From: Solibacteraceae bacterium | GTDB taxonomy: Bacteria; Acidobacteriota; Terriglobia; Bryobacterales; Bryobacteraceae | Assembly: GCA_021324015.1 (NCBI GenBank) | Contig: JAJPJX010000023.1 | Span: 1-64,000 of the forward strand | Direction of reading: 5' to 3' | DNA length: 64,000 nucleotides | The notes under the pieces: generated by a model | Database searches by the model: none | What the model was told of the DNA's origin: nothing | Seen by the model: the letters and a program-made list of their open reading frames with translations, nothing else | In this document: positions 12,326-25,608 of the stretch, piece after piece | How the letters are laid out: each line of letters begins with the position of its first letter | Numbering within the stretch: the first letter of the stretch is position 1 | Made by a program: the position numbers and the translations under genes

Positions 12326-13744
12326 ATGGCCGATATCCTCCTGACGCACGCGAACCACCTGTATTTCGACCGGAAACAGGTGCGCAAAATGCAGCCCTAC
12401 CCGCCTCTCCAGACGCTCCTGGCGGCCGCCTGTCTGCGGCAGGCGGGCTTCGAGGTGGCGCTCTTCGATGCCACTCTCGAGCCTCCCGAGGACGGCTTTC
12501 GGGCGGCGCTAGAGAAATACCAGCCGCGCCTGGCGGTTTTGTGCGAGGACAATTTCAATTTCCTCACCAAGATGTGCCTGACGCGCAACCGCGAACTGGC
12601 CTTCTTCATGTGCCAGGCCGCGCGGGAGGCGGGCGCGACGGTGCTGGTAAACGGATCGGATGCCTCGGACCATGTTGGGGATTACCTGGCTCACGGCGCG
12701 GATTACGTGCTGATCGGAGAAGTAGAGACCACTCTGGTGGAGATGGCTGCCGCGGCGGCGCCGGACGGGATAGCTGGAATCGCTTACCGCGAGGGAGGGC
12801 GGGTGCGCTTCCACCCGCCGCGAGGGTTGATCAACGATCTCGACCGCCTGCCTTTTCCGGCCTGGGACCTGGTGGACGTGGAGAGCTACCGCTCCCGCTG
12901 GCGGGAGGCGCACGGCTACTTTTCTCTGAACATGGTTTCCAGCCGTGGATGCCCATACCGGTGCAACTGGTGCGCCAAACCCATTTACGGCCAAAGCTAC
13001 CACTGCCGGTCGCCTCACCTGGTAGCCGAAGAGATGCGGTACGTGAAGTCCCGCCTGGCGCCCGACCGCCTGTGGTTTGCCGATGACATCTTCGCGCTCT
13101 CGGCGAGGTGGACCGTGGAGTTCGCCGGCGCCGTGGAGCGGATGCGGGCGCAGATTCCGTTCCAGATGCAGTCCCGCGCCGACCTGATGACGCGGGATAC
13201 CGTGAGCGCCCTCGCCCGCGCGGGGTGTGCGGAGGTGTGGATGGGCGCTGAATCGGGCTCGCAGAAGATTCTGGACGCCATGGACAAGGGCCTCCGCGTG
13301 GAGCAGATTCACCGCGCGTGCGAACGGTTGCGGGCGCATGGCATCCGTGCCTGCCTGTTCCTGCAATTCGGCTACCCGGGTGAGGACTGGGAGGATATCC
13401 AGCAGACCATCCGCCTGGTGCGCGAGATCCGGCCGGACAACATCGGCATCTCGGTGGCCTACCCGTTGCCTGGTACGCGGTTCTACCAGCTTGTAGAAGC
13501 CGAACTGGGACCCAAGAAGAACTGGGAAGACAGCGACGATCTGGCCATGATGTTCCAGGGCGCCTACACCAGCCGCTTTTACCGCGAGCTGCGGGACGCG
13601 CTGCACCTGGAACTGGATGTGGCGCACGGGCGCGCCCCCCGAGGCGCGGGCACACGCGCAGTGCGGGACCTTTGGCGCCGGGTCGAGGAACTGGAACGAA
13701 CCTGCCTGAACCCCAACCCCACCTTGCTATGGACCTGCTGCTGA
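12326..13744 (+). CDS. B12-binding-domain radical SAM enzyme A
   Basis: This 472-residue protein has an N-terminal Rossmann-like domain of the cobalamin-binding type (about residues 1-145) and a radical SAM barrel with the 4Fe-4S motif Cys209-x3-Cys213-x2-Cys216 (RGCPYRCNWC). The layout is that of the COG1032/BchE-like class, whose members methylate unactivated carbons or do other radical chemistry. It is the first gene of an eight-gene operon and is clearly paralogous to the next gene (both open with a DILLTH/DLLLTH strand and share the region after the Cys motif). Substrate unknown. The ribosome site is weak; the ATG is the first in frame after the intergenic region. Confidence 0.88.
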   Translation: MADILLTHANHLYFDRKQVRKMQPYPPLQTLLAAACLRQAGFEVALFDATLEPPEDGFRAALEKYQPRLAVLCEDNFNFLTKMCLTRNRELAFFMCQAAREAGATVLVNGSDASDHVGDYLAHGADYVLIGEVETTLVEMAAAAAPDGIAGIAYREGGRVRFHPPRGLINDLDRLPFPAWDLVDVESYRSRWREAHGYFSLNMVSSRGCPYRCNWCAKPIYGQSYHCRSPHLVAEEMRYVKSRLAPDRLWFADDIFALSARWTVEFAGAVERMRAQIPFQMQSRADLMTRDTVSALARAGCAEVWMGAESGSQKILDAMDKGLRVEQIHRACERLRAHGIRACLFLQFGYPGEDWEDIQQTIRLVREIRPDNIGISVAYPLPGTRFYQLVEAELGPKKNWEDSDDLAMMFQGAYTSRFYRELRDALHLELDVAHGRAPRGAGTRAVRDLWRRVEELERTCLNPNPTLLWTCC

Positions 13745-15075
13745 CGCACGGCTACTTCCTCCACGAAGACCCCAAGGAGCAGCAGATCATGAAGCCATAC
13801 GCTCCGCTGGGGATCCTGTATCTTTCTTCGCACCTGCGGCGGAAGGGGTTCGGGGTGGAGATCTACGATGCAACCTTCGGCTCGCGGCAGGAACTATACA
13901 GCATTCTGGACAAGGGGCCACCGGCTGTGGTGGGTATCGCCGCGAACCTGATGACGCGTGGGAGTGCGATCCAGATCGCGCACGCGGCGCGGGCCGCCGG
14001 CTGGAAAGTCGTGCTGGGAGGGCCCGAACCGGCCAACTATCCGGCCGAATACCTGGCGGGCGGTGCTGACGTAGTCGTGGAGGGTGAGGCCGAACTCACG
14101 CTGGAGGAGCTGCTGCCCGCGCTACGCACCGGGGACGAGCAGGCGCTGGCGCGGGTGGCTGGCATTCTTTTCCGCGGCCCTGGCGGGGAGGTGGTGCGCA
14201 CCGGCCACCGGGCGCTGATCCCGGACCTCGACGCGCAGCCTTGGCCGGACCGCGAGCGGGTCGATATGGCGCGGTACCTCGAAACCTGGCGCCGGCATCA
14301 CGGCAAAGGCTCTGTTTCGGTAATCACCTCCCGCGGCTGTCCGTTTCACTGCAACTGGTGCAGCCACTCGACGTTCGGCCAGACGCATCGCCGCCGCTCG
14401 CCCCCGGGCGTGGCGCGGGAAGTGGAATGGATCCTCGAGCGCTACCAGCCCGAGATGCTCTGGATGGCCGACGATGTCTTCACCATCCACTCCGGCTGGA
14501 TTCTGAGGTACGCGGAGGAAATGCGGCGGCGCGGCTTGCGGGTGCCCTTCGAATGCATCACGCGGGCCGACCGGCTGAGCGCCCGCCTGGCGGATGCGCT
14601 GGCCGAACTGGGGTGCTTCCGCGTGTGGATCGGCTCGGAAAGCGGCTCGCAGCGCATCCTGGACGCCATGCAGCGCGGCGTCACCGTGGGGCAGGTGCGC
14701 GAAGCCATCGGGCTGTGCCGCGCCCGCGGCATCGAGACGGGCATGTTCCTGATGTGGGGCTATTCCGGCGAGGATCTGGAGGACATCGAATCCACGGTCG
14801 AACACGTGAAGCGCTGCCGGCCGGACGTGTTTCTGACCACGGTTTCCTACCCCATCAAGGGAACGCCCTATTACGCAGCAGTGGCGCCCCGGCTGGTGAA
14901 CCCACGCGGCTGGGCGGAAACGAGCGATCGCGACGCGAAGATCTCGGGGAGGCACTCACGCCGGTTCTACCAACTCGCGGACCGGCTGCTGCGCAGTGAA
15001 GTGGCCGGGGATGAGGGCGGGGCGTGCGCTGCGCGCGAGGCACTGCGCGAGGCGTATGCGGAGGTGGAGGCATGA
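13729..15075 (+). CDS. B12-binding-domain radical SAM enzyme B
   Basis: This 448-residue paralogue of the preceding enzyme has an N-terminal B12-binding-like Rossmann domain (KPYAPLGILYL, VVLGGPEP, ADVVVEGEAE) and a radical SAM barrel with Cys204-x3-Cys208-x2-Cys211 (RGCPFHCNWC). The ATG at 13729 overlaps the upstream gene by 16 bases; an upstream extension in frame exists but lies wholly inside the previous gene. Its stop overlaps the next start (ATGA). The pair probably arose by tandem duplication and may act on successive positions or intermediates of one product. Confidence 0.87.
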   Translation: MDLLLTHGYFLHEDPKEQQIMKPYAPLGILYLSSHLRRKGFGVEIYDATFGSRQELYSILDKGPPAVVGIAANLMTRGSAIQIAHAARAAGWKVVLGGPEPANYPAEYLAGGADVVVEGEAELTLEELLPALRTGDEQALARVAGILFRGPGGEVVRTGHRALIPDLDAQPWPDRERVDMARYLETWRRHHGKGSVSVITSRGCPFHCNWCSHSTFGQTHRRRSPPGVAREVEWILERYQPEMLWMADDVFTIHSGWILRYAEEMRRRGLRVPFECITRADRLSARLADALAELGCFRVWIGSESGSQRILDAMQRGVTVGQVREAIGLCRARGIETGMFLMWGYSGEDLEDIESTVEHVKRCRPDVFLTTVSYPIKGTPYYAAVAPRLVNPRGWAETSDRDAKISGRHSRRFYQLADRLLRSEVAGDEGGACAAREALREAYAEVEA

Positions 15076-15800
15076 GCGCGGCAGCCGCCTTCGACGCGCT
15101 GGCCGAACGATACGACGAAATGTGGACGCATTCGCTCGTGGGGCGGCTGCAGCGCGACGCCGTCTGGAGCGAGATAGATGGCCTGTTCCAGCCGGGCGAA
15201 GCCGTCTGGGACTTGGGCTGCGGAACGGGAGCGGACGCAGCCTGGCTGGCGCGGAAAGGCGTGCGCGTCTTCGCCTCCGACATTTCGCCCAGGATGCAGG
15301 AAATCGCCCAGGCCCGCGGAGTGCCCGTGGGGCCGGCGCCGGCCAGCCTGGACGGGGTGCTCTCCAATTTCGGCGTGCTGAACTGCATCCCGGACCTGCG
15401 CGCACTGGCGGAGGATCTGGTCCGGCGCATGCGGCCGGGAGGGCGCCTCGTCTTTTGTGTGATGGGGCGCTTCTGCCTTTCGGAAACCGCGTGGTACCTG
15501 CTGGCGGGGCGTCCGCGGAAAGCCTTCCGGCGGTGGGGGGGCCGGGCGGAAGCGCAGCCCGGCGGCTTTCCCGTGTGGTATCCCACAGTGGGTGAACTGG
15601 CCGCGGCCTTCGCGCCGCACTTCCGCTTGGTGCGGTGGCGCGGGATCGGCCTGCTGGTGCCTCCCTCCTGCACGGAGCGGGCGGTGCGCCGCTTTCCGCG
15701 GCTCCTGGGCGGGTTTGCGGCGGCGGACAGCGTGCTGGCGCGTCTGCCGCTTCTGCGCGGCATGGCGGACCATCGCCTGCTGATCCTGGTGCGCACATGA
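15072..15800 (+). CDS. class I SAM-dependent methyltransferase C
   Basis: This 242-residue protein has a methyltransferase fold with motif I DLGCGTGAD (residues 47-55) and a post-motif region ending in MRPGGRLVFCVMG. The N-terminal FDALAERYDEMW is typical of UbiE-like small-molecule methyltransferases. The long C-terminal part (residues 150-242) is rich in Arg and aromatic residues and may bind a hydrophobic substrate. It overlaps both neighbours by ATGA, within the radical SAM operon. Substrate unknown. Confidence 0.85.
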   Translation: MSAAAAFDALAERYDEMWTHSLVGRLQRDAVWSEIDGLFQPGEAVWDLGCGTGADAAWLARKGVRVFASDISPRMQEIAQARGVPVGPAPASLDGVLSNFGVLNCIPDLRALAEDLVRRMRPGGRLVFCVMGRFCLSETAWYLLAGRPRKAFRRWGGRAEAQPGGFPVWYPTVGELAAAFAPHFRLVRWRGIGLLVPPSCTERAVRRFPRLLGGFAAADSVLARLPLLRGMADHRLLILVRT

Positions 15801-16729
15801 TGGCGGGAGTGGAAACCGGAACCGTACGCCTGCTGTGCCCGGCCTGCCGTGAACCCGGGGCGCGGCTGGACGAGGTCACCGAGGCCGGCGCCTTGTGCCG
15901 CCGTTGCGGGTTCCGGCTGCTCCGGATGGATGGCATCGTCCGTGCTTTGGCTCCCGGCCGCCGGCAGCACTACGCGCGGTTCCTCGCGGATTACGCGGCC
16001 ATCCGGCACGCCGAAGGGCGCGGCTCGCCCGAGGAGGACTATTACCGCGCCTTACCGTACGAAGACCGGAGCGGGCGGAACTCCGCGCAGTGGGCCATCC
16101 GCGGCCGGACCTGGCGCTATTTCGAGACGCACGTGCTGACCGATCGGAAGTGCGACGTCCTGGACCTGGGCGCCGGCAACGGCTGGATGTCCTGGCGGTT
16201 GGCCCAACGCGGCCACCGGCCGGTGGCGGTGGACATCTTCACGGATGCGCTGGACGGCCTGGGCGCCGCGCGGCACTATGGCGGCTTTCCCCTGGTGGAG
16301 GCTGAATTCGACCGGCTGCCGTTCGCTGACGCGCAATTCGACCTGGCCATCTTCAACGCCTCGTTCCATTACTCGACCGACTACCGCCGGACCTTGCAAG
16401 AGGCACGCCGTTGCCTGCGCGCCGGCGCGCCCGTGGTCATCCTGGATTCGCCGATCTACCGCCGGCGCGAGCACGGGGAGCGCATGCGGGAAGAGCGCCA
16501 CGTGCAGTTCCAGGAAACGTACGGCTTCCGCTCGGACAGCATCCCCAGCCTGGAGTATCTGTGGGACGGCCTGCTGCGGGAACTGGAGCGCGAGCTGGGC
16601 ATCGCCTGGAGCGTGTACTATCCCTGGTACGGGTGGAAGTGGTTCTGGCGCCCGTGGAAAGCGCGCCTGGAGCGGCGGCGGCCGCCGTCGCGCTTTGCGA
16701 TTCTGGTGGGTCATTTTGAGCAGCCATGA
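15797..16729 (+). CDS. methyltransferase D with N-terminal zinc ribbon
   Basis: This 310-residue protein has a Trm112-like zinc ribbon (Cys14/Cys17 and Cys34/Cys37) followed by a class I methyltransferase domain with motif I VLDLGAGNG (about 121-129). The C-terminal half has conserved-looking blocks around FHYSTDYRR and DSPIYRR. The zinc-ribbon/methyltransferase layout is also seen in RlmA-like proteins, but the sequence between the domains is long and the operon suggests a small-molecule substrate. The start ATG overlaps the previous stop (ATGA); the stop overlaps the next radical SAM gene. Confidence 0.82.
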   Translation: MMAGVETGTVRLLCPACREPGARLDEVTEAGALCRRCGFRLLRMDGIVRALAPGRRQHYARFLADYAAIRHAEGRGSPEEDYYRALPYEDRSGRNSAQWAIRGRTWRYFETHVLTDRKCDVLDLGAGNGWMSWRLAQRGHRPVAVDIFTDALDGLGAARHYGGFPLVEAEFDRLPFADAQFDLAIFNASFHYSTDYRRTLQEARRCLRAGAPVVILDSPIYRRREHGERMREERHVQFQETYGFRSDSIPSLEYLWDGLLRELERELGIAWSVYYPWYGWKWFWRPWKARLERRRPPSRFAILVGHFEQP

Positions 16730-18186
16730 TCCTGCTGCTGCATCCCCGCGCCACCAAGCCCAAGAACCGGCGCCTGCCGCTGGCCGTACTGTCGCTCGCG
16801 GCGGTGCTCGAAGGCCGCGAAGAATACACCCTCGTGGACGGCAATCTCGATCCGGCCCCGGGAGAGTCGCTCGACCGCCTGATGCGCGACAAGCCCGCGG
16901 AACTGCTGGCCGTCTCGGTCATGCCCGGACCGCAGATGGTAGCCGCCATCCCGCTTTGCCGGGCGTTTCGCGAAAAGTACCCCGCCGTGCCCATCGTTTG
17001 GGGCGGCTATTTCCCGTCGCTGCACCCTGACGCCGCGCTGAACGCCTCTTACGTGGATTACGTGGTGCGGGGGCAGGGAGAGGAGACGCTCCTGGAACTG
17101 CTGGAGGCCTTGCGCGGCAGGCGCGAATTGGGCTCCGTGCGCGGCCTCTCCTGGAAGGACGGTTCCGGCCTGCACGTGCACAATCCCGAGCGGGCGCTGC
17201 GCTCGCCCAACGAGTTCCCCTGGCTGCCCTATCACCGGCTGGACATGCCGCGCTACCTGCTGCCGACGTTTCTGGGTTCGCGCACGGCCGTACACCAGGC
17301 CAGCATCGGGTGCCCGTATCGCTGCAATTTCTGCGGGGTGGTGCCGGTCTACGGCGGCCAGAAGATGGAATCGCCCGCGCGCACGGCCGCCGTTCTGGAG
17401 CACCTGCGGGAACGCTACGGCGCCAACGCGGTGCAATTCTACGACAACAACTTTTTCCTGCGCGAGGACCACGCGCGGGAACTGGCCGGGCGCCTCCGGC
17501 CGCTGGGGATGCGCTGGTGGTGCGAGGCGCGCGTGGACATCGTGCTGGGCTATTCGGACGACACGCTGCGGAAACTGCGGGACGCCGGCTGCACCATGAT
17601 CTTCTTCGGCGTGGAATCCGGTTCGGACGCGGTGCTTCGCGAAATGCGCAAGAACCTGCGCTCTGAGCAGGTGCTGGAGCTGGCGCGGCGCATCCGGGAG
17701 TTCGGCATCATTCCGGAATACTCTTTTATCTTCGGCAACCCGCACGATGCTGACCGCGATACCCGCGAGACCATCGCTTTTATCCGGCGCGTGAAGCGGA
17801 TCAACCCGCAGGTCGAGATCGTGGTGCAGACCTACGTGCCCGTGCCGCAGCGCGAGGGCATGTACGGCGGCGTGGACGGGCAGATCCGGTTTCCGGACAC
17901 GCCCGAGGAATGGGCTACGGACCGCTGGTTCCGCTTCACCATCCGCACCGATCCGCGGCTGCCCTGGCTGCCCGGACACGTCAAGCGGCGCATCGACAAT
18001 TTCGAGCTGGTGATGGCCTCGCGCTGGCCCACGGTGCAGGACGCGCGATTGCCGCGCTGGAGCAAGCTGCTGCTGCGCGGGCTGAGCAGTTGGCGCTACG
18101 CCTTGGGGATCTACGACTTTCCGCTGGAGCTGCGCTGGGCGCAGAATTGGATCAAGCTGAGGAAACCGCGTTTTGAGAGTCTCTGA
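16726..18186 (+). CDS. B12-binding-domain radical SAM enzyme E
   Basis: This 486-residue protein has an N-terminal cobalamin-binding-type domain (VVRGQGEETLLELL closes it, residues 113-126) and a radical SAM barrel with Cys196-x3-Cys200-x2-Cys203 (GCPYRCNFC). It is more distant from enzymes A and B than they are from each other. The C-terminal 100 residues, rich in Trp and Arg (about 400-486), lack a recognisable domain. It overlaps the previous gene by ATGA, and the next gene starts inside its last codons at a TTG. Possible roles are C-methylation or a rearrangement in the shared pathway. Confidence 0.86.
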   Translation: MILLLHPRATKPKNRRLPLAVLSLAAVLEGREEYTLVDGNLDPAPGESLDRLMRDKPAELLAVSVMPGPQMVAAIPLCRAFREKYPAVPIVWGGYFPSLHPDAALNASYVDYVVRGQGEETLLELLEALRGRRELGSVRGLSWKDGSGLHVHNPERALRSPNEFPWLPYHRLDMPRYLLPTFLGSRTAVHQASIGCPYRCNFCGVVPVYGGQKMESPARTAAVLEHLRERYGANAVQFYDNNFFLREDHARELAGRLRPLGMRWWCEARVDIVLGYSDDTLRKLRDAGCTMIFFGVESGSDAVLREMRKNLRSEQVLELARRIREFGIIPEYSFIFGNPHDADRDTRETIAFIRRVKRINPQVEIVVQTYVPVPQREGMYGGVDGQIRFPDTPEEWATDRWFRFTIRTDPRLPWLPGHVKRRIDNFELVMASRWPTVQDARLPRWSKLLLRGLSSWRYALGIYDFPLELRWAQNWIKLRKPRFESL

Positions 18187-18859
18187 GACGCTATCCCCGC
18201 GCGCGGCCTACCGGCTGTGGGCCCGGACCTGGGACCAGGACGCGAGCGCGATCGTGGCCTTGGAATCGCGCTGCCTGCTGCCACTGCTGCCGGAGATGCG
18301 CGGAAAGTGCGTGGTCGACGTTGGCTGCGGCACGGGGCGGTGGCTGGCGGAATTCCGCCGTCGCGGTGCGGTGGCCGTGGGAGTGGACCTGAGCGTCGAG
18401 ATGCTGGGGCAGGCAGCCCGCAAACCGGGGCTGGCGGGCCTGCTGGCGGCGGCGGATGCGGAGCGGCTGCCTTTTCCGGACGGCTGCGCGGACCTGGTGC
18501 TGTGTGCCCTGACGCTGGGGCATCTGCCGGATCCGGCGGGGTCGCTGGGCGAACTCGTCCGGCTGGCGCGCCCCGGCGGCGCCGTGTGGATCACCGATTT
18601 TCATCCCGAGGCGGCCCGCCGCGGCTGGAAGCGCACTTTCCGCAGCGGGGAGCGGACTTACGAAATCCGGAATCACTGGTACGGGAAGGCGGAACTCGAA
18701 CGGGCAGGCGAGGCCGCCGGTCTGGAATTGGAGGAGTGGCGGGAGCCTTGCTTCGGAGAGCCCGAGCGGGAAATTTTCCGGGAAGCCGGGCGGGAGGACC
18801 TCTTCGAAGCGGCGCGGGGCACGCCCGCAGTGCTGCTGGCGCGGTGGAGACGAAAATGA
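18173..18859 (+). CDS. class I SAM-dependent methyltransferase F
   Basis: This 228-residue Methyltransf_11-type protein has motif I VVDVGCGTGRW (residues 47-57), the acidic end of strand 2 at GVDLS, and the LVLCALTLGHLPDP post-motif. The TTG at 18173 is used because GAGG lies ten bases upstream and the conserved region begins soon after; it overlaps the upstream radical SAM gene by 14 bases. The stop overlaps the amidohydrolase start (ATGA). It is the third methyltransferase of the operon. Confidence 0.85.
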   Translation: MRVSETLSPRAAYRLWARTWDQDASAIVALESRCLLPLLPEMRGKCVVDVGCGTGRWLAEFRRRGAVAVGVDLSVEMLGQAARKPGLAGLLAAADAERLPFPDGCADLVLCALTLGHLPDPAGSLGELVRLARPGGAVWITDFHPEAARRGWKRTFRSGERTYEIRNHWYGKAELERAGEAAGLELEEWREPCFGEPEREIFREAGREDLFEAARGTPAVLLARWRRK

Positions 18860-20031
18860 TCTTGAGCGGCGCCAGGGTGGCGCTGGGCCCCGGGGAGACG
18901 GCGCCGCTGGAGATCGAGATTCGCGGGGGCAGGATCCGGCGCCTGGGCCGGCGCCTGGAGGGGAGACCGCGCCTGCGCCTGGAGGGCTGCCTGATTCTGC
19001 CCGGTCTGATCAACGCCCACGATCACCTGGAGTTCAATCTGTTTCCGCGCCTGGGCCGCGGTCCGCACCCCAATGCCGGCGCCTGGGCGCGTGTCGTCCA
19101 TCGGCCCGCGGAATCGCCGGTGCGCGAGCACCTACGGGTGCCGCAGAGCACGCGTCTAGTCTGGGGCGGGTTGAAGAATCTGCTGAGCGGCGCCACTACG
19201 GTGTGCCACCACAACCCCACGGGCGCCGCCGTCTTCCGGAGGCGTTTCCCGGTGCGCGTGGTCCGGCGCATGGGATGGGCGCATTCCTTGGAATTCAGCC
19301 CGGACCTCGCGGCGCGCTTTCGGCACACCCCCGCGGATCAGCCGTTCGTGGTGCACCTGGGAGAGGCCGTGGACGGGAGCGGAAAGCGCGAACTGCGCGT
19401 CTTGCAGGGGATGGGCGCGCTGGCCAGGCGGACGGTTCTTGTGCATGCCGTGGCTCTCGATGCGGCGGAGTTCGATCGCGTGCGCCAAGCTGGCGCCGCG
19501 GTGGTGTGGTGCCCCAGTTCCAATCTCTTTACCCTAGGCCGGACGGCCGGGCCGGAGTTGTTCCAGAGCGGTGTGCCGGTAGCCTTGGGCACGGATTCGG
19601 CGCTCACGGGCGCGGGCGACCTGTTGGATGAACTGCGCGTGGCGCGGCGTGCTTCCGGCCTCTCGCGGGAGGACTTGTACCGCATGGTGACCATCGAAGC
19701 GGCGCGCATCCTGCGATTGCGGCATGGCGAAGGCGCCATCACCGAAGGCGGCGTGGCGGACCTGGCGGTAGTGCGGGACGCAGGCCGGGCCCCGGCTGCC
19801 TCCGTGCGCCCGCCCGAACTGGTGCTCGTGGGCGGCCGGGTGAAGCTGGTTTCGGAGGCTCTCGCCGGAGGGCTACCAGGAGCGCTGCGGCGCCGCTTCG
19901 AGCCGCTTCAGGTAGCCGGGCGGCCTGGTGTGCTGGTGGATGCCGATGTCAGCGGCCTGGTGCGGCGCGCTGTGCGGGCGCTCGGTCCGGAGATCCGTCT
20001 GGCCGGCAAGCGAGTGCGCGCATGCATGTGA
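18856..20031 (+). CDS. metal-dependent amidohydrolase
   Basis: This 391-residue amidohydrolase-superfamily protein has all metal and catalytic positions expected: His55 and His57 (NAHDHLEF), His167 (VVHLGE), His197 (VHAVALD) and Asp247 (LGTDSAL). The pattern is closest to the deaminase branch (S-adenosylhomocysteine/5'-methylthioadenosine/guanine deaminase-like), so it may deaminate an aminated ring, or open a cyclic amide. In an operon that consumes much SAM, a role on a nucleoside by-product is also possible. It overlaps the upstream gene by 4 bases and the downstream gene by 10. Confidence 0.86.
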   Translation: MILSGARVALGPGETAPLEIEIRGGRIRRLGRRLEGRPRLRLEGCLILPGLINAHDHLEFNLFPRLGRGPHPNAGAWARVVHRPAESPVREHLRVPQSTRLVWGGLKNLLSGATTVCHHNPTGAAVFRRRFPVRVVRRMGWAHSLEFSPDLAARFRHTPADQPFVVHLGEAVDGSGKRELRVLQGMGALARRTVLVHAVALDAAEFDRVRQAGAAVVWCPSSNLFTLGRTAGPELFQSGVPVALGTDSALTGAGDLLDELRVARRASGLSREDLYRMVTIEAARILRLRHGEGAITEGGVADLAVVRDAGRAPAASVRPPELVLVGGRVKLVSEALAGGLPGALRRRFEPLQVAGRPGVLVDADVSGLVRRAVRALGPEIRLAGKRVRACM

Positions 20032-21005
20032 TCGAAAAGCTGCCCATCCTGATCCTCGAGCCGCACAGCCGTTGCAACTGCCGCTGCCGCATGTGCGACA
20101 TCTGGAAGGTGGAGACGGTGGAGGAGATCCGCGCTGCAGACCTGGAGCGGCAGGCCGGCGAGATATCTGCCCTGGGAGTCGAGTGGGTGGTGTTCTCGGG
20201 CGGCGAGCCGCTGATGCACTCCGGCCTGTTCCGCCTGGCCGCGCGGCTGCGCGAGATGGGCATCCGCACCACCGCGCTCAGCACCGGGTTGCTCCTGGAA
20301 AAGCATGCCCCGGCCGTCGCCGCGACGCTCGACGAGGTGATCGTGTCCCTGGACGGGCCGCCGCAGGTGCACGACCGCATCCGCGGCGTCGCGCGGGCCT
20401 TCGACCTGCTGGCCCGCGGCGTGCGAGCGCTCCGCGGGCGGCGTCCGGACTTTCCGGTGGCGGCGCGTTCGACCGTGCAGAAGGCCAACCATGCCCATTT
20501 GTGGGAAACCGCCGAAACCGCGCGGGCGTTGGGACTGCGTTCTATCTCCTTTCTGGCGGCGGATGTGACCTCCACGGCGTTCCATCGTCCGGAGGGCTGG
20601 CCGCCGGAAAGGCAGCATGAAGTGGCGCTGGCCGCAGACGAGATTCCGGTGCTCGAGGCGCAGATCGAGGCGCTCGCCCGCCTGCCGGACGGGTTTGTGC
20701 TGGAATCGCCCGAGAAATTGCGGCGCATCGTCCGGCATTTCCGGGCTTACCTGGGACAGGTCGAGCCGCAAGCGCCCCGTTGCAACGCGCCCTGGGTTTC
20801 CGCGGTGTGGGAGCCGGACGGCACACTGCGCCCCTGCTTCTTCCATCCAGCCTATGGGCGGCTGGGCGAAGCTGCTCTGCGAGAGGTGCTGAACAGCCCG
20901 CGGGCGGTCGAGTTTCGGGAGGGGCTGAAGATAGCCGATGATCCTACCTGCCGGCGGTGCGTGTGCTCGCTGTATCGACAAGGGTTCGGCTGGAGTCCGA
21001 AATAG
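20022..21005 (+). CDS. MoaA/SPASM-like radical SAM enzyme H
   Basis: This 327-residue protein lacks a B12 domain. It starts with the radical SAM motif Cys18-x3-Cys22-x2-Cys25 and has the SGGEPL strand-loop for SAM binding (about 65-70). The C-terminus carries further cysteines (APRCNAPW, RPCFFHP, and DPTCRRCVC), suggesting one or more auxiliary Fe-S clusters as in SPASM/twitch proteins. Such enzymes often modify peptides or aminated small molecules, but no precursor peptide gene is seen nearby. It is the last gene of the operon. Confidence 0.87.
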   Translation: MHVIEKLPILILEPHSRCNCRCRMCDIWKVETVEEIRAADLERQAGEISALGVEWVVFSGGEPLMHSGLFRLAARLREMGIRTTALSTGLLLEKHAPAVAATLDEVIVSLDGPPQVHDRIRGVARAFDLLARGVRALRGRRPDFPVAARSTVQKANHAHLWETAETARALGLRSISFLAADVTSTAFHRPEGWPPERQHEVALAADEIPVLEAQIEALARLPDGFVLESPEKLRRIVRHFRAYLGQVEPQAPRCNAPWVSAVWEPDGTLRPCFFHPAYGRLGEAALREVLNSPRAVEFREGLKIADDPTCRRCVCSLYRQGFGWSPK

Positions 21006-21110: not shown

Positions 21111-23309
21111 CTACCGGCGTAGTTCGCGCTTTAGCTCTTCCACCACCTCGGGGCGGCGGTCCGCGAGGTCTCTCTCTAGGCGCCGTAGCGCCACGCCGAC
21201 CACATCACGATGGTGCAGGCGCGAACCCAACTCCTCGGAGAGTTTGAGCCACAGGTCGTGCACCCGGTCAAGATCTTCCGGCCAGAGCCGCGGCGGATGT
21301 GGCCCCAGGTTCACGTACGCGGAGGGCCTTCCCGGGCTGATCACCTCGAGCGAAAACGCCTGACGCGGCTCGGGAAGGCGCTCCCATGCCAGGCCGATGC
21401 GCCGGGCCAGTTCCTCGGAGTCCATCCGGGGCGAGACCCCTGTAACCAGGCGGGAGGCCTGCAAATGCTGGGCAGTCTGCACCATGGCGTCGAAAGGATC
21501 CACCCCCGGAACCACCAGCAGATCCACGGTTTTGCCTTCTTTCTCCGCCATGGCTACCACGCGCGTGAACAGCTCGCGTTCGTAATCCGCGAAGATTTGG
21601 TTTTCGGCCAGATCATATTCCCCGGCGCCGGAGGAGACGGGGCGCACGGTCGTCACCACGATGTCGTGCCGGCGAGGATTGGTTTTGTGCAGCACGCTGT
21701 GCAGGTGCTCCATGCGGTTGTAGTCGCGCACGGCCACCAGCACGCAGCCGGGCCGGGCATGCACCGACCCGGCACTGATCTCCGGGCGCAGGTCCAGGTT
21801 AAATTCCTCGAGGCCCGACCGCCCGTGCTGTTTCCGGGCATTCACACGCTCGGAGACCGTAAAGATGGCGAACAACACCACCGTGAATCCCACGCCATAG
21901 ATGGTGGCGATCTGCTTGGAAAACAGGTTGGCGATAGCCACCAGGAAGAGGATCAGCGTGGTCAGGATCAGGCCCACGGGGATTTCCCGCCCGGCGATGC
22001 GGAAGTTCAGCGGGGTCTTGTACTCCTGATCGTGGCGGTGGTAGCGCAGCACCAGCACACCCAGCGACTTCAGGAAAAAGCTCCACACCACGCCGAAGGC
22101 GTAGGCCTCGCCCAGCAGATAAACGTCGCCGCGGCTCAGCGCGATGGTGGCAATCTGCAGCAGGGCGATCAGGTTGATGATCCGGTACGTGGTGCCGAAG
22201 CGCTTCTGCGGCTTGCGGAACCAGTCGATCAGGACGCCGTCCTCCGCCACCCGGTTCATGACCCCATTGGCGCCGATGATGGAGGTGTTCACCGCCCCGG
22301 ATAGAATCAGCACGCCCACCATCACCACGAACACATGAAACAGCAGCAGCAGCGGGCGAGGGCCGGCGAGATGCATGGCCAGGCCGCCCAGCAGGTTGTC
22401 CACATACTCCGTGCGGATGCGCTGCGCGGGGATGATCATGCCCGCGAAGATGGTGATCAATCCGGTGGACATCACGGCGTACAGGCATACCAGGTTCCCG
22501 GTGTAGCGCAGGTTCTTGAGCTTGGGAGACTTGATTTCCCGGTAGACCTGGGCCAGGGTCTCGAAACCGCTCATCGAAAGCAGGGAGTGGCCAAAGGCGA
22601 TCACGATCGCCACGGCGCCGATCTTCGGCCAGATGGTGCCGTCGAACCACCCCAGCGATTCGTGGCTGAACTCCAGGTTGGCCGGCACCGGCAGGGGCGG
22701 CAGTTGAAACTGCCGCCGGAGGAGCAGGGTCAGCGGGCACCAGAGCAGGAAAGCCACCACCATGATCGTGGTAATCTGCATGATCCGCAGCGCCTTGCCG
22801 CTGGATTCGTGGATGCCCTTGATGTTGTTCCACCAGAAGTAGACCGTAACCGCCACGCCGAAGAAAGCGGCAAAGGCGTTTGGCGGTACCGTGGCTTCCA
22901 GGTGCAGAAGTCCGGAGATTTCGTTCAGCAGGCGTCCCAGATACTGCCCCGCGCTCACCACACTGATCGGCCCGGTGAGGATGTAATCGAAGATGAGGGA
23001 GGAAACCGAAAGCCGGGCGATGAAGGGGCCCATGGAGTCGCGCACGACCACGTACACGCCGCCGCGCACGAACATCCCGCAGCTTTCCATGTACACGGAG
23101 CGCACCGCGAAGCTGAACAGCATCACCGCCAGGATGAACCACGGCGCGCTGGCCCCGATGGCCTTTTCGGCGATGCCGCCTGCGTAAAACGCCGAGGAGG
23201 CCAGGTCGCTGAGTACGATGGCGGCCGCCCGCCAGAACGAAATGAATGTCAGCGCGACGGTGGTCGCGACCACGACCTTCGACGCGGTATCCCGGTTTGG
23301 CGCAGCCAT
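21111..23309 (-). CDS. APC-superfamily amino acid permease with soluble C-terminal domain, copy 1
   Basis: This 732-residue protein has an N-terminal APC transporter core of about 490 residues with roughly 12 hydrophobic segments, beginning around VALTFISFWRAAAIVLSD. About 230 soluble residues follow. This tail includes a strand-helix pattern (GCVLVAVRDYNRMEHL, DIVVTTVRP, VDLLVVPGVDP) resembling a universal-stress-protein-like fold, and then LGPHPPRLWPED with HHRDVVGVALRR. The tail may sense a ligand or gate transport. The adjacent paralogue at 23353 has the same layout. Upstream, TAGAAT lies 11 bases before the ATG and no ribosome site is obvious. Confidence 0.85.
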   Translation of the reverse strand: MAAPNRDTASKVVVATTVALTFISFWRAAAIVLSDLASSAFYAGGIAEKAIGASAPWFILAVMLFSFAVRSVYMESCGMFVRGGVYVVVRDSMGPFIARLSVSSLIFDYILTGPISVVSAGQYLGRLLNEISGLLHLEATVPPNAFAAFFGVAVTVYFWWNNIKGIHESSGKALRIMQITTIMVVAFLLWCPLTLLLRRQFQLPPLPVPANLEFSHESLGWFDGTIWPKIGAVAIVIAFGHSLLSMSGFETLAQVYREIKSPKLKNLRYTGNLVCLYAVMSTGLITIFAGMIIPAQRIRTEYVDNLLGGLAMHLAGPRPLLLLFHVFVVMVGVLILSGAVNTSIIGANGVMNRVAEDGVLIDWFRKPQKRFGTTYRIINLIALLQIATIALSRGDVYLLGEAYAFGVVWSFFLKSLGVLVLRYHRHDQEYKTPLNFRIAGREIPVGLILTTLILFLVAIANLFSKQIATIYGVGFTVVLFAIFTVSERVNARKQHGRSGLEEFNLDLRPEISAGSVHARPGCVLVAVRDYNRMEHLHSVLHKTNPRRHDIVVTTVRPVSSGAGEYDLAENQIFADYERELFTRVVAMAEKEGKTVDLLVVPGVDPFDAMVQTAQHLQASRLVTGVSPRMDSEELARRIGLAWERLPEPRQAFSLEVISPGRPSAYVNLGPHPPRLWPEDLDRVHDLWLKLSEELGSRLHHRDVVGVALRRLERDLADRRPEVVEELKRELRR

Positions 23310-23352: not shown

Positions 23353-25608
23353 TCAGTACGAATCCACCAGAGAGCGGCCGGTTTCCGATTCCGCGTTGGA
23401 GTGCGCCACTTCGCCGAGCACGTCGCGGATCACGTCGGGAGCCTTGTCCGATTGCAACTCCTCCTGCATGCGCCGCAAGGCCACGCCCACGACATCGCGG
23501 TGATGCAGCTTGCCCTTGGGCACCAGATTGCTCAGCGTCAGCCAGAGTTGGTGCACCAGTTGGACGTCTTCGGGCCAGAGGCGCGGCGGATGCGGGCCCA
23601 GGTTGAAGAACACGGATTTGCCTCCGGAGGCGACGATCTCGAGCGACAGCGACGGCCTCGGCTGCGGCAACTTCTCCCATTCGATGCCCACCAGGCGGCC
23701 CTGTTCGGAGGGGTCCAGTACGGGCGAAAGGCCCATCACGATGCGTGAGGACTGCATGCGCTGCGCGGTCTGCACGATGGCGGCGTAGGGGTCCGCTCCC
23801 GGTACGACCATCAGTTCCACGTGCTTGCCGGCCTTTTCCGCGAGCGAGACCACTTTCGTGAACACGGTCGTCTCATCGCCCGAGAAAATCTGATCCGGCG
23901 ACAGACCGTACTCCCCGGAGCCGGCGGGTGTCACCCCGCGAACAGTCAGCACCACAATGTCAAGCTTGCGTGTGTCGGTCTTTTCCAGGATTTTGGCCAG
24001 ATGGTCCAGGTGGTTGGGATTGCGCACCGCCACCAGCACGTTCCCCGGCCGCACCTTGACCGACTGCGCGGAGAGTTCTTCGCGCGTATCCAGGCGGAAC
24101 TTTTCCATCTCCAGTTCGTGCCGGGACTGTTTGCGCCGGTTGTACTTCTCCGAGAGCTCGAAGATCGTGAAGAAGGCCGCCGTAAAGCTCAGGCCGGAGA
24201 TAGTGGCTACTTTCTTGGTCAGCACGTTGACCGTAGCCAGCGAAAACAGCATCAGGGTGGTGATTCCCAGGCCCACCGGAATCTCGAGGCCGCCGATGCG
24301 CGGGTTGAAGGGGACCTTCCATTCACGCCCGTGAGGCTGCTTGTAGCGCAGCACCAGCACGGCCAGGCCTTTCATGGCGAAGCTCCACACCACGCCGAAG
24401 GCGTAGGCTTCGCCCAGCATGTAGACGTCGCCGCGGCTCAAGATGATAGTCACCAGTTGCAGCAGAACGATGGTATTGATCAGCCGGTGGGTGGTGCCGA
24501 ATTTGGCGTGCGGATGGCGGAACCAGTCGGGCAGCACGCCGTCTTCGGCAATGCGGTTCAGCACGCCGTTGGAACCGATAATGGCCGTGTTCACCGCGCC
24601 GGAGAGGATCAGCGTGCCCACCAGGACCACGAAGAGGTGGAAGAGCAGACGCAGAGAAACCGGGCCCACCAGGTACATGGAGAGGCCGCCAATCAGGTTG
24701 TCCAGGAACTTGGGCCGCTCGGCGTCCGGAATCAGCATCACCGCAAAGAAGGACACCAGCGAGATGAACAGCAGGCTGTAGACGAAGATCACGAAGCCGG
24801 CGCGTTCCAGGTTCTTCAGCTTGGGATGCGCGATTTCGCGGTTCACCTGCGCCAGGGTCTCCTCGCCGCTCATGGCCAGCAGGGAGTGGCCCAATCCGAC
24901 CAGGACGGCGATCGCCGTGAAGGAGGGCCAAATCGTGCCCTGCAGCCACCCCAACCCTTCCGGGCTGAAGTGCAGGTTGGCGCGCACGGGCAGCGGAACC
25001 GGGTTGTAGCCCTTCTGAAAAATAGTGAGCAGGCACCAGGCGATAAGGAGGATCACCATCACGGTGGTGATCTGCATGATCCGTAGAGCCTTTTCGCTGG
25101 ATTCGTGGATGCCGATGATGTTCTTGCGCCAGAAGTAGATCGTGACGATGGCGGCGAAGACCGCGGCGAAATGGGGTGGGTGCACGTGCAGCCCGGAGAT
25201 CCCGAAGTGTTCCCCGACCTCGTTGATCAGGCCGCCCAGGTACAGACCCGCGCTGACGCCGCTGATGGGTCCGGTCAGGATGTAGTCGAACATCAGGGCG
25301 GAAACCGAAAACTTGGCCAGGGTTCCGCCCATGGCTTCGTGCACCACCTTGTACACCCCGCCGCGCACGAACATGCTGCAACTTTCGATATAGATCGCGC
25401 GGACTGCGTAGGAGAACAGCATGATGCCCAGGATGAACCAGGGCGCGGATTTGCCGATGGCCTGCTCGGCAATGCCGCCCGCGTAGTAGGCGGAAGACGC
25501 CAAGTCGCTGAGAACAATCGCCGCCGCCCTCCAAAACGAAATGAAAGACAGCATTACGGTGGTCGCGACCACAACCTTGGTCGCGCTCGTGGATTGATCT
25601 ACTGCCAA
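23353..25608 (-). CDS. APC-superfamily amino acid permease with soluble C-terminal domain, copy 2
   Basis: This 751-residue tandem paralogue of the downstream gene shares an APC permease core (about residues 10-490, including SGEETLAQVNREI and the GDVYMLGEAYAFGVVWSF segment) and the same soluble tail with GNVLVAVRNPNHLDHL, VELMVVPGADPYAAIVQTAQ, LGPHPPRLWPEDV and HHRDVVGVALRR. The start is TTG at 25608, supported by AAGGAG eight bases upstream. The substrate is unknown; APC members usually carry amino acids or amines. The gap to copy 1 is 43 bases, so co-transcription is likely. Confidence 0.86.
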   Translation of the reverse strand: MAVDQSTSATKVVVATTVMLSFISFWRAAAIVLSDLASSAYYAGGIAEQAIGKSAPWFILGIMLFSYAVRAIYIESCSMFVRGGVYKVVHEAMGGTLAKFSVSALMFDYILTGPISGVSAGLYLGGLINEVGEHFGISGLHVHPPHFAAVFAAIVTIYFWRKNIIGIHESSEKALRIMQITTVMVILLIAWCLLTIFQKGYNPVPLPVRANLHFSPEGLGWLQGTIWPSFTAIAVLVGLGHSLLAMSGEETLAQVNREIAHPKLKNLERAGFVIFVYSLLFISLVSFFAVMLIPDAERPKFLDNLIGGLSMYLVGPVSLRLLFHLFVVLVGTLILSGAVNTAIIGSNGVLNRIAEDGVLPDWFRHPHAKFGTTHRLINTIVLLQLVTIILSRGDVYMLGEAYAFGVVWSFAMKGLAVLVLRYKQPHGREWKVPFNPRIGGLEIPVGLGITTLMLFSLATVNVLTKKVATISGLSFTAAFFTIFELSEKYNRRKQSRHELEMEKFRLDTREELSAQSVKVRPGNVLVAVRNPNHLDHLAKILEKTDTRKLDIVVLTVRGVTPAGSGEYGLSPDQIFSGDETTVFTKVVSLAEKAGKHVELMVVPGADPYAAIVQTAQRMQSSRIVMGLSPVLDPSEQGRLVGIEWEKLPQPRPSLSLEIVASGGKSVFFNLGPHPPRLWPEDVQLVHQLWLTLSNLVPKGKLHHRDVVGVALRRMQEELQSDKAPDVIRDVLGEVAHSNAESETGRSLVDSY

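Follow-up and report, generated by a model that had tools for sequence, protein, structure and literature searches.

The present analysis concerns a window of 64,000 nucleotides, i.e., positions 1 to 64,000 on the forward strand of contig JAJPJX010000023.1 from the Solibacteraceae bacterium assembly GCA_021324015.1. Within this window, open reading frame (ORF) analysis placed eight successive plus-strand genes, here termed o1 to o8, at positions 12326-21005, and we regard this operon as the acidobacterial version of a hitherto uncharacterised biosynthetic cluster organized around the tandem gene pair o1-o2 and the methyltransferase gene o3. The eight genes in all likelihood form one pathway. 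This conclusion, already proposed in an earlier note based on the DNA letters, is well supported because synteny is conserved, o2 and o7 co-occur and o6 and o7 are fused in relatives. The cluster represents a B12 radical S-adenosylmethionine (SAM) tailoring type with an architecture that is conserved across phyla and that matched no described system. With regard to the product, the class and heavy methylation of which we infer, chances appear about even that a combined radical SAM and methylation pathway tailors a precursor, either a sugar or a glycan, that is destined for the cell surface. More tentatively, with a likelihood that we place somewhat short of even, the cluster may stand for a new, probably horizontally spread class of surface glycan or glycolipid, found in at least ten phylum groups, in which sugars are remodelled by the tandem B12 radical SAM pair and a nucleotidyltransferase or kinase makes the handle; in Acidobacteriota, this equipment would be extended by further B12 radical enzymes, from a third up to a fifth, together with a SPASM enzyme and a unit of methyltransferase and aminohydrolase.

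The gene coordinates confirmed the overlaps of 4-16 bases reported in the earlier note (16, 4, 4, 4, 14, 4 and 10 bases from o1 to o8), and Pfam likewise bore out its assignment of three B12 radical SAM enzymes, three methyltransferases, one amidohydrolase and one SPASM-containing radical SAM enzyme. The radical SAM domain PF04055 was detected above its cut-off in the tandem pair o1 (12326..13744, 472 amino acids, 68.4 bits) and o2 (13729..15075, 448 amino acids, 75 bits), in o5 (16726..18186, 486 amino acids, 72.3 bits) and in o8 (20022..21005, 327 amino acids, 57.3 bits), while the B12-binding domain PF02310 scored 34.9, 57.9 and 58.2 bits in o1, o2 and o5, respectively (cut-off 32.1 bits). 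Judged by their N-terminal B12-binding domains and CxxxCxxC motifs, o1, o2 and o5 thus appear to be class B, i.e., B12-dependent, radical SAM enzymes. After removal of matches below a length threshold, the three cysteines of the motif were invariant in o1 (C209, C213, C216; 90/90 rows), in o2 (C204, C208, C211; 91/91) and in o5 (C196, C200, C203; 49/49). In o8, C18, C22 and C25 as well as C254, C272, C310, C313 and C315 were invariant in all 30 rows, and a SPASM domain (PF13186) was matched with 35.3 bits. Class I SAM methyltransferases are encoded by o3 (15072..15800, 242 amino acids), the third core gene, which matches PF13489 and PF08241 and has G51 and G53 invariant in 74/74 rows, by o4 (15797..16729, 310 amino acids, alternative start at 15800; PF08241 58.1 bits) and by o6 (18173..18859, 228 amino acids, TTG start; PF08241 80.3 bits). 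G125 of o4 is invariant and G127 is present in 37 of 38 rows; the N-terminal CxxC/CxxC stretch of this protein lies outside the conserved positions of the family. The amidohydrolase o7 (18856..20031, 391 amino acids) matches Amidohydro_1 (PF01979) with 67.1 bits. HxH, HxxE, H and D make up the metal and catalytic set of the mononuclear aminohydrolase branch of PF01979, and the corresponding residues of o7, H55, H57, H167, E170, H197 and D247, were invariant in 38/38 rows, which upholds the full metal site described earlier. With a complete motif set and a concordant AlphaFold2 fold (predicted local distance difference test score, pLDDT, 95.6), o7 probably belongs to this branch.

The operon is more than a chance arrangement, since a large part of its gene order is found again in other phyla. 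In a scan with one genome per species, o2 had 192 relatives, and the 80 best loci were used; 75 of these contain o2 proper and 50 of the 75 extend at least 3 kb to both sides. Two loci (L122, L187) were removed as duplicates of L042 and L043. The thresholds for family membership were our choice, and the neighbourhood profiles were built from these same loci. Among the 50 loci, o1 was found within 8 kb of o2 in 47, always on the same strand, and o3 accompanied o2 in 38; o5 was present within 8 kb in 24 loci, on the same strand in 22. Further partners were C2, a family described below (21 loci), o7 (15), o4 (13), o8 (12) and o6 (11). In a tree of 187 rows, o1 (90 rows, SH-aLRT 97) and o2 (91 rows, SH-aLRT 94) formed sister clades that each cover ten named phylum groups with similar sub-groups, including Acidobacteriota, Chloroflexota, Thermomicrobiota, Bacteroidota, Ignavibacteriota, Myxococcota and Pseudomonadota; it was obtained by a quick search without bootstrap and with midpoint rooting, and groups in such a tree can be split by paralogues and metagenome bins. 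Since the two clades are paired, the o1-o2 pair looks like an old, co-inherited duplication. Horizontal transfer of the pair is likely. A spread of o2 by plasmids was considered and is unsupported, with three matching plasmid records of 28-30% identity.

Several local features of these loci were recorded. Two Bacteroidota o2 loci (L101, L108) have no o1 nearby and are flanked on both sides by genes of the ATP-binding cassette (ABC) type. In four Anaerolineae loci, a conserved protein of about 79 residues is encoded between o1 and o2 (L060:3045-3284, L068:9154-9393, L070:9256-9495 and L071:1923-2159). Seven Bacteroidota and Ignavibacteriota loci (L078, L081, L088, L093, L100, L113, L116) exhibit the same divergent block upstream of C2-o1. 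The conserved genes of this block turned out to be housekeeping genes (PASTA, Rpe, NagA, GlnA); their common position beside the core suggests one insertion site or common inheritance.

A neighbourhood search across the Acidobacteriota revealed that homologues of the operon genes are not scattered, in line with the single pathway proposed earlier. Of 347 genomes, 29 contain o2 (30 matches at E<=1e-90, one of which, in G325, is of the o1 type and was excluded) and 23 contain o7 (E<=1e-40). Both occur together in 18 genomes, as compared to 1.9 expected, and in 16 of these they reside on one contig; in the other two, G247 and G305, the assemblies are fragmented and the two genes lie on different contigs. 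Five genomes (G325, G109, G190, G126, G176) encode o7 without o2, and two of them, G109 and G190, carry a reduced cluster consisting of o1, o3, o4 and o7 (loci L188 and L189). In many acidobacterial relatives, one or two extra B12 radical SAM genes (o0) are located upstream of o1, while the window is devoid of o0. A family labelled f8, which we take to be Acidobacteriaceae because its rows in the tree cluster with those of Silvibacterium and Paracidobacterium, comprises 12 o2-bearing genomes, from which nine operons were fetched (L177-L184, L196). In all nine, o6 and o7 constitute a single ORF of 631-708 residues, a fusion that links the methyltransferase to the amidohydrolase; no o4 was detected in two of the nine (L179, L184).

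Judging from sequence and model, o7 may act on an intermediate of the pathway or clear S-adenosylhomocysteine (SAH) and 5'-deoxyadenosine. The latter role, that of a clean-up deaminase for one of these by-products, would explain the fusion to the methyltransferase o6, and the seven best structural matches of o7, at Z 36.1-37.6, are TM0936 (two entries) and adenosine or methylthioadenosine (MTA)/SAH deaminases. Yet o7 scored only 26.2 bits against the MTA/SAH deaminase profile NF012037 (cut-off 779) and 55.6 bits against the 5'-deoxyadenosine deaminase profile NF005557 (cut-off 522), isocytosine deaminase and triazine hydrolases follow closely at Z 33-34, and the middle, substrate-facing stretch was unaligned by sequence in the five alignments examined. 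For o7 taken by itself, we consider by-product removal rather unlikely, albeit the most probable of the alternatives discussed here.

The case for a sugar-type precursor is based in part on the genes surrounding the core in relatives. C2, which precedes the core in many loci, is a family of which one member has no Pfam match and another a marginal match to NTP_transf_2. G124, D136 and D138 are invariant, and the predicted fold (pLDDT 89.5) consists of a winged helix and a nucleotidyltransferase domain. The model superimposes on aminoglycoside nucleotidyltransferases with Z 8.0 and 3.0 Å over 112 residues (best Foldseek E 0.013), a resemblance that is suggestive and not strong. In most loci of the eight-gene type with a nucleotidyltransferase-type partner, C2 is replaced by two genes, one for an HprK-like kinase and one for an NTP_transf_5 protein. 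These follow o8 directly in KBS 96 and, in other loci, are divergent or located close by; in some loci, a small gene that matched no family lies between the two. Acidobacterial loci with C2 instead are few, e.g., L098, L111, L114, L117, L185 and L186. Among the 53 loci with a length of 14 kb or more, 25 contain C2, eight the HprK-like kinase or NTP_transf_5 and 20 neither; the two types never share a locus, be it among these 53 or among all 104 loci. A kinship of C2 and NTP_transf_5 was rejected at an hhalign probability of 0.3%, and they are handled here as two different nucleotidyltransferases. Within f8 (36 genomes), the HprK-like kinase is present in 12/12 o2-positive vs. 7/24 o2-negative genomes (hypergeometric p 4e-5), the latter including six confirmed to be without o2, and in 10 of the 12 it is encoded within 16 kb of o2 on the same contig. 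Near this kinase, four f8 loci encode an exported protein of about 124 residues that appears cupredoxin-like by eye (L177:19443-19823, L178:19328-19696, L180:190-546, L196:2025-2429).

The same regions are rich in genes related to glycan assembly and export. In relatives, the core is flanked by genes for GT87, GT9 and GT4 glycosyltransferases, a Wzx-type flippase and an ABC exporter, and loci with the HprK-like kinase/NTP_transf_5 also carry GT87, GT4 and SLBB export genes. Glycosyltransferase/Wzx profiles derived from non-acidobacterial loci reached at least 100 bits in 17/37 acidobacterial cluster loci vs. 0/20 control loci, and 40 bits in 19/37 vs. 0/20; with profiles from all loci, the numbers were 21/39 vs. 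0/20. The control loci came from relatives of the host and surround amidohydrolase genes of the TRZ/ATZ type, and L124 was excluded from the test with non-acidobacterial profiles. These neighbourhoods point to a surface glycan. They also modify the earlier observation that transporters and precursor peptides are missing: it stands for the operon in the window, while in relatives, genes for flippases, for an ABC exporter and for polysaccharide export are adjacent.

In the host itself, the genes for an HprK-like kinase and NTP_transf_5 are found together on another contig (C50). The kinase owes its label to 37% identity with the KBS 96 kinase. The locus concerned (L121:5036-14284) contains genes for a bacterial sugar transferase and for GT4 enzymes, two Wzy_C genes and a match to Wzz below threshold and, by this gene content, is an exopolysaccharide locus.

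The strongest rival to a surface glycan, though in our view an unlikely one, is a diffusible secondary metabolite resembling nucleosides or aminoglycosides, in which case the glycosyltransferases of the relatives would either belong to its formation or be chance neighbours. Presence of the cluster is patchy, as the 29 of 347 Acidobacteriota genomes with o2 illustrate, the C2 fold is like that of aminoglycoside nucleotidyltransferases, and the recurrent ABC exporter could fit equally well; furthermore, the solved relatives AprD4, BlsE and OxsB are enzymes of antibiotic formation. Against this speak the recurrence of Wzx flippase, SLBB export and GT87 genes and the position of the kinase/NTP_transf_5 pair of the host within an exopolysaccharide locus.

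The kinase and nucleotidyltransferase genes also bring to mind a ribosomal peptide modified by these two enzymes and by radical SAM enzymes, comparable to paeninodin and pseudomycoidin (PMC8498205). We deem such a product improbable, even though the HprK-like kinase and NTP_transf_5 adjoin several loci and o8 is a SPASM enzyme. Among 3399 small ORFs (25-140 amino acids) around the loci, three groups extended to four loci (blastp 1e-4), namely the Anaerolineae 79-residue protein, its antisense shadow and the cupredoxin-like exported protein from f8, and none appeared precursor-like by eye; the search covers linked precursors, and an unlinked or very divergent one would escape it. Nor did any maturase profile for ribosomally synthesized and post-translationally modified peptides (RiPPs) reach its cut-off among the best 25 profiles per protein.

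This last result was general: among those best 25 profiles, no NCBIfam profile attained its cut-off for any operon protein, and assignments to hopanoid, chlorophyll or other curated radical SAM families were rejected or considered unsupported on this ground. The comparison of the radical SAM proteins with curated families, suggested by the earlier note, hence gave no match to a characterised pathway. For o1, o2 and o5, respectively, the scores were 138.9, 110.9 and 120.5 bits for HpnJ (TIGR03471, cut-off 577.6), 112.1, 132.7 and 115.9 bits for BchE (TIGR02026, cut-off 481.35), 83.3, 62.1 and 73.2 bits for AprD4 (NF033070, cut-off 500), 99.9, 54.4 and 47.1 bits for B12_rSAM_oligo (TIGR04295, cut-off 400) and 72.7, 79.9 and 92.3 bits for the RiPP C-methyltransferase rSAM_ocin_1 (TIGR03975, cut-off 281.85). 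The SPASM enzyme o8 scored 51.5 bits for BlsE (TIGR04466) and 62.8 bits for the SynChlorMet protein ScmE (TIGR04250), both with a cut-off of 400. A survey of the open-licence literature by titles and abstract openings revealed no described pathway matching the cluster, which is weak evidence of novelty.

As the top NCBIfam matches, HpnJ and BchE, are lipid and tetrapyrrole enzymes and the host is an acidobacterium, methylation of membrane lipids, with o1, o2 and o5 adding methyl branches to long alkyl chains, deserves mention; the branched tetraether and iso-diabolic lipids of Acidobacteria exemplify such chains. It is nevertheless hardly probable, given that the matches amount to at most 139 vs. 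578 bits for HpnJ and 133 vs. 481 bits for BchE, that relatives of o2 range as far as Chloroflexota, Bacteroidota and Roseobacter and that the recurrent neighbours that can be named are sugar genes. An acyltransferase domain was found in 2 of 148 sampled neighbours, no search having been aimed at lipid genes.

Support for the sugar reading comes from the nearest solved relatives, since AprD4, OxsB and BlsE are sugar or nucleoside enzymes. By sequence, all these relatives being remote, AprD4 (PDB 6fd2) ranks first among solved proteins for o1 and o5 and second, after 9ccb, for o2; OxsB ranks third for o5, and BlsE, a cytosylglucuronate decarboxylase, first for o8 (E 1e-12, residues 16-173). Methylation by o1, o2 and o5 should not be taken for granted because AprD4 is a sugar diol-dehydratase and not a methylase. 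C-methylation still appears the most likely reaction and deoxygenation of the AprD4 kind the less likely one. A heavily methylated small molecule, lipid or cofactor, as envisaged in the earlier note, was accordingly not established, with AprD4 being nearest to o1 and o5 and the neighbourhoods indicating a surface glycan.

On the assumption that a sugar or glycan precursor is tailored for the cell surface, the following sequence of events can be proposed. A nucleotidyltransferase, either C2 or NTP_transf_5 together with the HprK-like kinase, would equip a sugar-type precursor with a handle in the form of a phosphate or nucleotide, and the host would encode the kinase/NTP_transf_5 for this step away from the operon. 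The enzymes o1, o2 and o5 would introduce radical changes at unactivated sugar carbons, o3, o4 and o6 would cap O or N atoms, o7 in conjunction with o6 would hydrolyse a C-N bond of an intermediate, and o8 would contribute a BlsE-like radical step, before glycosyltransferases and exporters deliver the product to the cell surface.

A number of observations weigh against this proposal. Every kinship to solved enzymes is remote at the sequence level, and the top PDB match of o2 is 9ccb rather than AprD4. For C2, a Z of 8.0 is a level at which a common arrangement of the fold can suffice. Profile scans of the window region found no glycosyltransferase adjoining the operon, no nucleotidyltransferase is linked to it, C2 was not detected in the host genome by a search that had no positive control, and the host kinase scored 19.6 bits against PF07475, i.e., below the cut-off of 33.3. 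Between 18 and 20 of the 37 acidobacterial cluster loci were without a glycosyltransferase in the stretch examined. The p-values, among them those of Fisher's test for cluster vs. control loci (1e-4 at 100 bits, 3e-5 at 40 bits), overstate the case because loci of relatives are not independent. Finally, Pfam annotation of 148 ORFs drawn at random from 294 unassigned neighbour ORFs revealed no recurring theme among the best 25 of 104 families, ORFs longer than 700 amino acids and eight near-duplicate loci having been excluded before the draw.

The gene calls deserve a brief comment. A filter for GC content by codon position was passed by seven of the eight operon genes; it missed o7, probably because the longest o7 ORF begins far upstream within o6, and this call is backed by homologues. 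The many long antisense ORFs in the window are due to its GC content of 65%. Outside positions 4647-30582, the window was examined as ORF lists only. Downstream of the operon, two adjacent minus-strand genes of the amino-acid-permease type are located at 21111-23309 (732 amino acids) and 23353-25608 (751 amino acids), the Pfam matches of which stop at residues 482 and 470, respectively, leaving about 250-280 C-terminal residues unmatched.

Should the sugar reading hold true, B12 radical chemistry, which is known mostly from antibiotics, cofactors and lipids, would also shape surface sugars in many bacteria of soil and sediment, and the enzymes would be candidate catalysts where sugars are to be selectively methylated at C-H bonds or deoxygenated. 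The conserved o1-o2 pair is a marker for finding such clusters, and the o6-o7 fusion identifies two enzymes that are expected to act together. Genomes assembled in one or few contigs are among the cluster carriers, and the product can thus be sought directly in culturable carriers, e.g., Silvibacterium bohemicum (L048), Paracidobacterium acidisoli (L045) and KBS 96 (L042).

Among known systems, HpnJ and BchE provide the top curated profiles for o1, o2 and o5 yet remain far under their cut-offs, and no hopanoid- or chlorophyll-specific gene occurs among the eight operon genes. BlsE is the best solved relative of o8 and still falls far short of its family threshold. The o7 model superimposes on TM0936, which we take to be an MTA/SAH deaminase, with Z 37.6 and 2.8 Å over 343 residues at 22% identity; fold and type of metal site are shared, whereas o7 lies far below the family cut-offs. 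A pair of HprK-like kinase and nucleotidyltransferase is found in HPr-rel-A and lasso-peptide systems as well as beside relatives of the operon, although the kinases of three relatives scored only 40.7, 46.5 and 35.6 bits against the HPr-rel-A kinase profile TIGR04352 (cut-off 200). Lasso peptides such as paeninodin and pseudomycoidin receive phosphate and hexoses through the action of an HprK homologue and a nucleotidyltransferase (PMC8498205). AprD4, a radical SAM diol-dehydratase acting on the pseudodisaccharide paromamine in the apramycin pathway (PMC5461906), resembles o1, o2 and o5 in layout, with an N-terminal B12-type domain and a radical SAM domain in 457 amino acids; it differs in being remote kin (62-83 bits) and in working with the reductase AprD3. 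GenK, GenD1 and MoeK5 have sugar carbons as their targets. As B12 radical SAM methylases, they take part in the biosynthesis of gentamicin and moenomycin (PMC8992657), and Fom3 methylates a cytidylylated substrate, i.e., one tagged with cytidine monophosphate (PMC8158854). All four are of the same enzyme class as o1, o2 and o5, to which they are likened by class and description only. The tagged substrate of Fom3 parallels the linkage of o1/o2 loci with nucleotidyltransferases and constitutes a precedent for combining a B12 radical methylase and a nucleotide handle.

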